43,895 bases of DNA, from positions 1-43,895 of the forward strand of contig CALHLE010000033.1 of the NCBI GenBank assembly GCA_938034415.1, given 5' to 3'. Both the position numbers and the translations under genes were made by a program. Within the stretch, counting starts at the first letter, position 1. The number at the start of each line of letters is the position of its first letter. This DNA comes from an uncultured Anaerolineae bacterium. Lineage in GTDB: Bacteria; Chloroflexota; Anaerolineae; J036; Brachytrichaceae. This document shows, in pieces, positions 8,613 to 17,275 of this stretch. The notes under the pieces are model-generated. The model had not been told where the DNA came from and did no database searches. It saw only the letters and a list, made by a program, of their open reading frames with translations.

Positions 8613-9758
8613 ATGATCCGCATCGTCGAGGTAGATACAGCCAACCGGACGCAGACGCGCCAATTCTTGGGCCTCCCGTTTCGCATCTATCGCGACATTC
8701 CGCAATGGGTGCCGCCCTTGGCCGGCGATGCGGCGCGCCAACTCGACCGCAAGCGCCATCCGTTCTTCCGGCACTCGGATGCCGCCTTCTTCCTGGCCTA
8801 TCGCGACGGCGACGTTTGCGGGCGCGTCTGCGTGCTGGACAATCGTCGCTACAACGAGTTCAACGCCGGCCGGACGGCCCATTTCTTCTTGTTCGAGTGC
8901 GAGGACGACTTCGGCACGTCGCGCCGCCTGTTTGACGCGGCGTGTCAATGGGCGCGCCGGCGCGGCCTGGACTCTATCGAAGGTCCAAAGGGCATGACTG
9001 CGCTGGACGGCCTGGGTCTGCTGGTCGAGGGGTTTGCCCACCGTCCGGCGCTGGGCATCCCCTACAACCGCGACTATTACCCAGAGCTGCTGGCGGACGC
9101 CGGATTCGTCGGCGCAGGCGACATCGTCTCCGGCTACCTCAGCCCGCGCGCGCTGAACGAGGCGGCGTTTGAGCAGATCGACCGCGTGGCCGAGCGGGTG
9201 AGAGCGCGGCGGGGGTTGCGCGTGGCGCGCTTCACCTCGCGGCGCGCCCTGCGCCGCGCCGTGCCAACGCTGCTCGACCTATACAACGGCGCGCTGGGAC
9301 GCGCAGGGGGCAACGTGCCGTTCACGCCGGACGAAGCCCGGACCATGGCCAACCAGATCATCTGGTTCGCCGACCCACGGCTGATTAAGCTGGTGTACAA
9401 GGCGAACGAGCCGGTCGGATTTCTACTGGCCTACCCCGACATCTCCGAAGCGATTCAGCGGGTGCGAGGCCGCTTGTGGCCGCTGGGATGGCTGGTGCTG
9501 TGGCGCGCGCTGAAATCTACCCGCTGGGTCAACGTCAATGGCATGGGCATCGCAGAAGCCCATCGCGGCGGCGGAGGCACAGCCGTGTTGTTCAGTGAGA
9601 TGCGCCGGAGCGTCGTCGAGGGTGGCTATGAGCACGCCGACCTAGTGCAGATCGGCGTCGAGAACTTGCCGATGCAGCGCGAGATGCGTGACCTCGGCGT
9701 CACGTTTTACAAGACGCACCGCATGTATGCGCGAGCGCTGGCATCAACAGCCGCTTGA
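8613..9758 (+). CDS. GNAT-like acyltransferase family protein (YghO-type)
   Basis: A 381-residue cytoplasmic protein that looks like an N-acetyltransferase-fold protein of the YghO type. It opens with a strand and a proline-rich region (FRIYRDIPQWVPPL), then HPFFRHSDAAFFLAYRDGDVCGRV, typical of a GNAT N-terminal half. The C-terminal half has KLVYKANEPVGFLLAYPDISEA and a late HRGGGGTAVLFSEMRRS segment that resembles an acyl-CoA binding loop and helix. The substrate is unknown. It is divergent from the chelatase gene, separated by 90 bases. ATG at 8613 is the first in-frame start and has no clear ribosome binding site. Confidence 0.7.
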   Translation: MIRIVEVDTANRTQTRQFLGLPFRIYRDIPQWVPPLAGDAARQLDRKRHPFFRHSDAAFFLAYRDGDVCGRVCVLDNRRYNEFNAGRTAHFFLFECEDDFGTSRRLFDAACQWARRRGLDSIEGPKGMTALDGLGLLVEGFAHRPALGIPYNRDYYPELLADAGFVGAGDIVSGYLSPRALNEAAFEQIDRVAERVRARRGLRVARFTSRRALRRAVPTLLDLYNGALGRAGGNVPFTPDEARTMANQIIWFADPRLIKLVYKANEPVGFLLAYPDISEAIQRVRGRLWPLGWLVLWRALKSTRWVNVNGMGIAEAHRGGGGTAVLFSEMRRSVVEGGYEHADLVQIGVENLPMQREMRDLGVTFYKTHRMYARALASTAA

Positions 9759-9880
9759 CGCCGGACGCGCGATGCCCCACGGGCGCGCCTTGCGCTCAAA
9801 CCGCATAGATAATCAAGCAGCCTTAAACATCCGGCATTAACATTGGGTTGATGCATGTTCGGTTCGGTAAGCGTTTGAGA

Positions 9881-9970
9881 GCCTATTCGGTGACACTCAA
9901 CGGGCAGGCGAAGGCGCTGCCCTCGCCCGCCTGATGCGCCTGCTGCGCGCTGCGCATCCTCCGAATAGGC
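9881..9970 (+). promoter_or_regulatory. Strongly folded 90-base element in the pfkA leader
   Basis: Perfect inverted arms GCCTATTCGG (9881-9890) and CCGAATAGGC (9961-9970) enclose two further perfect stems: GGGCAG/CTGCCC (9902-9907 with 9917-9922) and GATGCGC/GCGCATC (9933-9939 with 9952-9958). Together they form a three-way-junction shape that ends 25 bases before the pfkA start. It could be a leader RNA or a mobile palindromic repeat; I do not recognise it as a known riboswitch. The preceding 9759-9880 holds no gene I can support. Confidence 0.55.
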
Positions 9971-9995
9971 TTCGTGACAACAACTCTCAAGAGCA

Positions 9996-10970
9996 ATGAA
10001 GCGAATAGCAGTAGTCACTTCTGGCGGCGACGTCCCCGGACTCAACGCCGCCATCCGCGCCGTCACGCGCTCGGCGTTGGCTTACGGCGTCCAGGTGATC
10101 GGCGTCCATCGCGGATACGAGGGGTTGATCGCCGGCGAATTCACCGAAATGACCTCCCGCGACGTGGGCGGCATCTTGCGCAAAGGCGGCACGATTCTCG
10201 GCACCTCGCGCAGCGAACGCTTCATGACCGAAGAAGGCCGTCGCGCAGCCAAAGAGCGGCTGGAGCAGGCCGGCATCGAGGGCCTGGTCGTGATCGGCGG
10301 CAACGGGACGTTGGCCGGCGCATACCAGCTTTACAAGCTGGGCGTGCCGCTGGTCGGCGTGCCCAAGACAATTGACAACGACCAATACGGCACCGACACG
10401 GCCATCGGCGTGGATACGGCGCTCAACACCATCGCCGAGGCGGTGGGGCGCGTCAAAGACACGGCCTCATCGCACCGGCGCGCCTTCCTGATCGAAGTGA
10501 TGGGGCGGCGGTGCGGCTACCTGGCGTTGGCCAGCGGCATCATCTGCGGCGCGGAGATGGTGCTCATCCCCGAACGGCCGGCCTCACCGGACGACGTGGC
10601 GCGCCGCATCATCGAGGTCAGCCACATTGGCAAAGCGCACTGCATCATCATCGTCGCCGAGGGATGGCCGCCTGGCCTACAGGCGCTGAAGGCGCACCTG
10701 CTCACCAATCACGTGGACGAAGGGTTTGACGTGCGCGAAGTGGTGTTGGGACACGTGCAGCGCGGCGGCACGCCGACAGCGTTCGACCGGTTGCTGGCCA
10801 CGCGCATGGGCGTGCGCGCCGTCGAGTCGCTTCTGGACGGCAGCGGCATCGGCCACATGGTCGGTTTGCACGGCGGCCAGCTTAACCTCGTGCCGCTCGA
10901 AGTCGCCACGTCACAGCAAAAGCCGCTCTCGGCCGAGATGCTGCGCATCGCCGACATGCTGTGCCACTAA
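9996..10970 (+). CDS. pfkA: 6-phosphofructokinase
   Basis: A 324-residue phosphofructokinase phosphorylating fructose 6-phosphate in glycolysis. It has the phosphoryl-donor loop TSGGDVPGLNAAIR, GGTILGTSRS, the catalytic PKTIDND (Asp127) and MGRRCGYLAL. Numbering fits the E. coli enzyme exactly at the donor site: residue 103 is Asn (not Asp), 104 is Gly and 124 is Lys. In this family Gly104 generally goes with ATP use and Lys124 marks the clade that includes both ATP and pyrophosphate enzymes, so ATP is the better guess but pyrophosphate use cannot be excluded. The gene stands alone and is preceded by the folded element at 9881-9970. No strong ribosome binding site is seen. Confidence 0.93.
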   Translation: MKRIAVVTSGGDVPGLNAAIRAVTRSALAYGVQVIGVHRGYEGLIAGEFTEMTSRDVGGILRKGGTILGTSRSERFMTEEGRRAAKERLEQAGIEGLVVIGGNGTLAGAYQLYKLGVPLVGVPKTIDNDQYGTDTAIGVDTALNTIAEAVGRVKDTASSHRRAFLIEVMGRRCGYLALASGIICGAEMVLIPERPASPDDVARRIIEVSHIGKAHCIIIVAEGWPPGLQALKAHLLTNHVDEGFDVREVVLGHVQRGGTPTAFDRLLATRMGVRAVESLLDGSGIGHMVGLHGGQLNLVPLEVATSQQKPLSAEMLRIADMLCH

Positions 10971-17125: not shown

Positions 17126-17275
17126 GGCTATCGGTTCAGATTTTGAGGTGCGCGGTGGGTTCGGCTATGCTTTTGCTTACCCAAACGCGCCTCAAGCTGC
17201 GCGTTTTCAGATTGAAACTTAAACGCGGTGAGGCTTTCTTTGAAGATCGCGCCCCCCAACGAGGGGCAGCGCAGC

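Follow-up and report, generated by a model that had tools for sequence, protein, structure and literature searches.

A probable decayed MITE of the IS5 type, built around a REP-like palindrome, before pfkA in an Anaerolineae bacterium

Introduction

Why does a strongly folding non-coding sequence stand directly before pfkA in an uncultured Anaerolineae bacterium? The sequence lies on a contig of genome G000, analysed here over 43,895 nt (the window, whose coordinates are used throughout). The original prediction described three nested perfect stems of 10, 6 and 7 bp and proposed a regulatory RNA in the leader of a glycolytic gene, with a mobile palindromic repeat that landed before pfkA as the alternative. 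Two well-known classes of sequence, MITEs and REPs, have to be considered under the second heading. IS5-family MITEs are non-autonomous derivatives of IS5-type insertion sequences.

Results

The fold upstream of pfkA

The pfkA gene (9996..10970, plus strand; PFK family, PF00365, E 3.4e-106) is preceded on the same strand by a gene for a GNAT-type acetyltransferase (8613..9758; PF00583, E 2e-05), and the element predicted to end 25 bases before the start codon does so, the distance running from 9970 to the start codon at 9996. Inspection of the stems gave a perfect outer stem of 11 bp, not 10 (9880-9890 with 9961-9971), and the expected 7-bp stem (9933-9939 with 9952-9958). The 6-bp stem (9902-9907 with 9917-9922) is also present in the sequence, but it lies outside the minimum-energy fold, where it is replaced by a longer hairpin with two mismatches (9902-9915 with 9919-9932). 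The fold proved strong, with a minimum free energy for 9880-9971 of -48.6 kcal/mol compared with -33.87 (sd 3.4) in 200 dinucleotide shuffles (z -4.33), none of which reached an equally good fold. The stems are not nested in the strict sense, as the two hairpins lie side by side within one outer stem. The statement that no known riboswitch class is matched agrees with the Rfam search of the window, in which no family reached its gathering score; three matches at E <= 10 were obtained for 9760-10000, all far under gathering scores. A scan of 9700-10050 for sigma-70-type promoters gave no match, and the same interval held no terminator-like site, that is, no GC-rich hairpin followed by a T run, for which reason an intrinsic terminator was rejected.

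The whole insert (9880..9971, no strand assigned), a probable decayed MITE-like element of ~90 bp, was delimited by its fold, by its presence or absence at orthologous pfkA leaders and by related copies in G003. Its putative left terminal inverted repeat, GAGCCTATTCGG (9879..9890, plus strand), is complementary to the right arm and recurs as a motif 10-14 nt before the palindrome at other sites, and the right one (9961..9971, minus strand) is complementary to the left arm and resembles the right ends of four G003 copies. Between them lie a dispersed 31-bp palindrome, GGGYRGGCGAAGGCRNTGCCTTCGCCYRCCC (9902..9932, no strand assigned), which forms the REP-like core and was defined by genome-wide matches and by pairing that ends at 31 bp in 38 copies, and a right subterminal hairpin (9933..9958, plus strand), defined by its stem, the fold and the pairs counted in four species, 7 of 7 in G000 and G008, 5 in G002 and 3 in G003. 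The three-way junction is, by this model, the predicted single-stranded product of two inverted repeats, a palindrome and a subterminal hairpin.

Occupied and empty pfkA leaders

Nine genomes of the genus (G000-G008) were examined, eight of which, G000 included, have a close pfkA; the PfkA proteins of the seven others are 89-98% identical to that of G000. In the alignment of the leaders the insert occupied the same place in four of the eight (G000, G008, G002 and G003) and was replaced by a gap in three (G001, G004 and G006), these insert-free relatives having a 95%-identical PfkA. The eighth leader, that of G005, carries a different, unrelated long palindrome at the insert place. A regulatory RNA, for which the original prediction required that the element always precede pfkA, does not fit three empty loci and one unrelated palindrome among eight close loci, nor the copies found elsewhere, one of them between convergent genes. 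The eight loci instead display an insertion polymorphism with empty sites. On a nucleotide tree of pfkA the four carriers formed one group with a support of 0.963, and since they group together a single insertion suffices. No target-site duplication could be recognised beside the pfkA insert; a TGA might be counted on either side, but 2-3 bases from where it should stand.

Two further features of these leaders were seen. The G005 palindrome is near-perfect, with arms of ~42 bases as judged by eye, and represents a second, independent palindromic sequence at the same place. The insert in the G003 leader has an enlarged core hairpin, to which partial repeats of the hairpin's own arm have been added (GGGTAGGCAAAGGATAGGCGAAGGGTAGACGAAGG).

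Dispersal of the 31-bp core

The genomes were searched for the core with a 21-base pattern of the palindrome, at up to 3 mismatches, against a backward control pattern. G000 gave 63 forward and 61 reverse matches compared with 1 and 1 for the control. With a stricter pattern the forward matches numbered 36 in G003, 19 in G000, 14 in G004, 11 in G007, 10 in G005, 6 in G008, 3 in G006 and 1 each in G001 and G002, the control being 0 in every genus genome; beyond the genus, 6 of 32 genomes matched, with no more than 5 matches per strand. Among 38 copies from G000, pairing of the arms stops at 31 bp. Position -1 is paired in 29 of these (shuffle maximum 24) and position +4 in 36 (shuffle maximum 33), and both covary above shuffles; joint variation at position -2 did not exceed the shuffle maximum. 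By a codon-usage score, 36 of the 38 copies lie outside coding-like sequence, compared with 37 of 300 random 31-mers from the window. The gene context could be classified for 31 G000 copies and was convergent in 12, tandem in 17 and divergent in 2, where the same crude gene finder gave 6 convergent, 26 tandem and 5 divergent for neighbouring genes of the window. With its many copies, short length and extragenic position, the 31-bp core is a REP-like palindromic repeat dispersed in the genus genomes. G000 further carries scattered copies of a sister palindrome, GGCGCAGGCNNTGCCTGCGCC, in which a change is compensated (C6:43844, C9:156596, C30:36343, C40:5103 and others).

A Y1 tyrosine transposase (RAYT; PF01797) gave no match in G000, which is 98.49% complete, the control search being positive in 5 of 14 named genomes. 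A REP driven by a RAYT was rejected, as G000 is without Y1_Tnp.

Putative terminal inverted repeats and copies elsewhere

If the palindrome alone were mobile, as in a plain REP-type repeat, the complementarity of the outer arms would be due to chance. The end of pairing at 31 bp in the 38 G000 copies, most of which do not share flanks, is what such a repeat would give. However, the left arm is not confined to pfkA. At pfkA, G000 C12:16008 and G003 C4:118802 the palindrome is preceded by AGAGCCTATTCGG at a distance of 10-11 bases; for the left-arm motif the distance to the palindrome is 10-14 nt at G000 C12 and, in G003, at C4, at two places in C2, at C19:106571 and at C27. The G000 C12 and G003 C4 copies look like one site in two species, lying between convergent ORFs, and with these counted once the arm recurs at five other sites. 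Both of these copies have a left end only, with no clear right inverted repeat. In G000, most one-mismatch matches to AGCCTATTCGG have no palindrome after them. A degenerate left end and palindrome do occur together at C47:23160 of this genome.

A covariance model was built from six copies (the four at pfkA, G000 C12 and G003 C4) and searched in the nine genus genomes. It also found G003 C2:51389-51477 (65.9 bits) and C27:24346-24434 (44.1 bits), neither of which was in the model, and the right ends of both mirror their left ends by eye. The same layout was seen at C19:106571 and C2:72883 of G003, so that this genome holds dispersed copies with two ends, as judged by eye, at four places besides pfkA. 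Many sites were returned on both strands, and the weaker matches, among those listed, seem to reflect the core palindrome alone.

An nhmmer profile of the four G003 copies together with G000 C12 and G003 C4 matched the occupied leaders at E 1.6e-9 (G003), 2e-9 (G000), 4.4e-8 (G002) and 4e-6 (G008), values to which the shared palindrome contributes, and had no match at E <= 1 in the other four pfkA leaders. When the palindrome was removed, the left-end profile became weak (E 0.049 for G000, 15-21 for G008, G002 and G003), while the right-end profile gave E 0.001 for G003 and 6.6 for G002 and had no match at the right place in G000 or G008. The weakness of these end-only profiles for G000 again favours a plain REP. 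Against it, the right sides of the carriers were compared pairwise with the four G003 right ends, with 2000 shuffles as reference, and a likeness beyond shuffles was found. Shuffles reached the summed score 14 times in 2000 for G000, 3 times for G008, 2 for G002 and 0 for G003, and the best single score 68, 2, 1 and 0 times, respectively; at the empty sites the score was reached by 113 of 2000 shuffles for G004, 859 for G006 and 129 for G001. With the recurrence of the left arm, this likeness and the lack of a Y1 transposase in G000, a plain REP with no MITE around it is quite unlikely.

Within the window the MITE profile gave one more match, a weak one at 17163-17215 (nhmmer E 2.9e-6 for the full profile and 0.0088 for the right end alone), which is perhaps another degraded copy.

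Relation to IS5-type elements

A one-mismatch search of 60 related genomes for the end motif GAGCCTATYCGRAAA, which the outer stem fits and which the ~90-bp copies of G003 carry, gave matches in 25 of them, in some at the control level only. In one genome of the class, G056, 87 and 83 matches were obtained compared with 1 and 1 for the control; the other 59 genomes together had 85 matches and the control 23, as summed by hand. Inverted pairs of the motif in G056 enclose 67-bp elements, at least 12 such pairs being present among the matches listed (for example, at C1:167600-168200), and by its sequence this genome is a putative carrier of a high-copy MITE family. In G057, from another family of the class, an element of 909 bp lies between inverted copies of the end motif and is flanked by TAA at either end. 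Target-site duplications of this IS5-type group have the form TNA. The two overlapping ORFs of the 909-bp element match DUF4096 and DDE_Tnp_1 of Pfam and also IS5_3 of NCBIfam, one above the cut-off and the other below it on its own. The left arm GAGCCTATTCGG fits a 12-base consensus, GAGCCTATYCGR, and of the first 12 bases of the G000 end, 10 are those of the G057 IS5_3 element, with mismatches at the three that follow.

Within the genus no intact insertion sequence with these ends was found. Of 30 IS5_3 loci retrieved from genus genomes, just one, a decayed locus on G008 C2, has the end motif within 2 mismatches; there, GAGCCTATCCTAAAA begins 114 bases ahead of a stop-containing IS5_3 match whose 44.8 bits fall under the cut-off. 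All IS5_3 matches in G000 were under the cut-off, and an intact IS5_3 element in G005 has ends that are similar in form and differ in letters (AGAGCTTGTTTGGGAAA). Adjoining a GAGCCTATCCTAAAA end is a stretch of 600 bases that is letter-identical in G006 and G008, a comparison of two species; beside it is an ORF, presumably for a family-10 xylanase. A recent transfer or a contamination is offered as a reading of this identity.

Conservation and covariation of the insert

If the pfkA leader of one clade in the genus held a cis-regulatory RNA, either an attenuator or a riboswitch-like element that controlled pfkA through binding of a ligand or protein to the junction, this RNA would be expected to show constraint. 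Apart from the strong fold, some of the data do point that way. The outer stem keeps 8 or 9 of its 9 pairs in all four pfkA copies, which come from four species. For the named three-way structure in six copies, both-side changes were counted at two pairs in the core and one in the right hairpin, and only 8 of 500 column shuffles reached the observed number of paired cells, 10 of 500 that of double-change cells and 14 of 500 the covariation score. The G008 insert is identical to that of G000 at 77/90 positions, above the adjacent intergenic stretch at 88/114 (0.856 vs 0.772). Because outer pairs are kept, the G008 insert is more similar and the pairing exceeds that of most column shuffles, some constraint is possible.

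Other observations go against such an RNA. Compared with G000 the inserts of G002 (70/91) and G003 (62/87, with 20 gapped columns) are level with or below the adjacent intergenic DNA (91/114 and 86/120); the third codon positions of pfkA are identical at 0.836, 0.820 and 0.796 in G008, G002 and G003. The insert is not clearly better conserved, as far as these alignments suggest, than the DNA beside it. The compensatory changes that had been named as the mark of a regulatory RNA were absent from the outer helix, where no pair had changed on both sides in the six copies, and in the right hairpin only 65.8% of cells were paired. The two changed core pairs correspond to -1 and -2 in the numbering of the dispersed repeat, and since -1 also covaries among the dispersed copies, the core double changes need no function in the leader. 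RNAalifold recovered from the six copies only the core hairpin and not the three-way junction. Together with the absence of the insert from three relatives with a 95%-identical PfkA, the copies at other places, the empty Rfam result and the lack of a terminator-like site, this makes a leader RNA very unlikely, and regulatory RNA was set aside on account of the presence/absence pattern, the outer stem without covariation and the scattered copies.

Position of the insert relative to the neighbouring genes

The insert lies ~120 bases past the stop codon of the acetyltransferase gene, and the C-terminal motif of this protein was found upstream of pfkA in 7 genus genomes with occupied or empty sites, all but G005. 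In the leader alignment a block before the insert (9808..9846, plus strand) is recognisable also in the insert-free genomes and is a candidate promoter or operator; its last part, TTAACATTGG, is missing from G008 and G002. Because a recognisable block precedes the insert even where the insert is lacking, the insert is probably transcribed within the pfkA 5' UTR, and the leader alignment favours this location over one in the promoter. The same arrangement bears on another possibility, that the fold is a 3' processing or termination structure of the acetyltransferase transcript. Of the 31 classified palindrome places in G000, 29 do have a gene whose 3' side faces the palindrome; however, the distance from the stop codon, the block in between, the lack of a terminator-like site and the absence of the insert from three relatives with the same gene order make this explanation very improbable.

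Discussion

The inverted arms, the dispersed core, the copies elsewhere, the pfkA leaders with and without the insert and the lack of covariation in the outer stem support the MITE reading. By the features of its sequence the element is probably a decayed MITE of the IS5 type. We consider it likely that it is the remnant of a small non-coding transposon, with IS5-type ends and a REP-like core, which was inserted in the ancestor of the four carriers. The alternative raised at the outset, a mobile palindromic repeat that landed before pfkA, is supported, and its repeat and inverted-repeat ends could both be described. A dedicated regulatory RNA is most likely not what the element is, even if transcription probably runs through it. 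In the proposed course of events, an IS5-type transposase acting in trans would have moved the element into the pfkA leader in the common ancestor of G000, G008, G002 and G003. The insert would then have decayed, and what is left of it in the pfkA 5' UTR may now be a hairpin that is inert or has a mild modulating effect. MITEs within transcripts, according to passages of PMC10969869, can carry promoters or be cut by RNase III, and for this reason a mild effect on pfkA is possible.

With IS5-family MITEs the element shares its short, non-coding and intergenic nature, ends that resemble IS5_3 terminal inverted repeats and folding as a stem; unlike them it is decayed, has no clear target duplication at pfkA and has a dispersed palindrome as its core. 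That core, of 31 bp, multicopy, extragenic and mostly between convergent or tandem genes, resembles the REP sequences of the GTAG and CGTC families in these respects, as outlined in part of PMC3733652, where GTAG repeats are also reported from Chloroflexi. Core copies with A-T at position -1 (12 of 38) can read GTAG at one end, but the palindrome is symmetric and any GTAG faces CTAC. It further differs from REPs in sitting inside a MITE-like element and in the lack of a Y1/RAYT-type transposase in G000, the genome searched for it. A further system for comparison is QMITE2 of Coxiella burnetii, described in sections of PMC10969869 as a MITE family whose truncated copies are REP-like; likewise a MITE family with REP-like shortened forms, it differs in its full length of ~190 bp, direct repeats of 7-9 bp and inverted repeats of 23-29 bp. 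No MITE or REP family of Roseilinea is named in the literature titles and abstract openings that were surveyed. What is new here is a probable IS5-type MITE of Roseilinea with a REP-like core, the MITE and REP classes being already known.

The interpretation as a decayed MITE removes a false riboswitch candidate from before a glycolytic gene and adds, for a Chloroflexota lineage that has been little studied, the description of an IS5-type MITE built on a REP-like core. The pattern of presence and absence at pfkA offers a natural comparison between leaders that have a long hairpin and leaders that do not. The nested structure also bears on the origin of repetitive extragenic palindromes that have no transposase of their own. 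It may be, though we regard this as doubtful, that the genus, taken here as Candidatus Roseilinea, has a REP-like family, lacking a detectable RAYT, that is spread by DDE transposition, with the 31-bp palindrome as core of an IS5-type MITE and the many bare palindromes as cores of MITEs whose ends were eroded or lost. If this is true, short extragenic palindromes without a dedicated transposase could arise as MITE cores.
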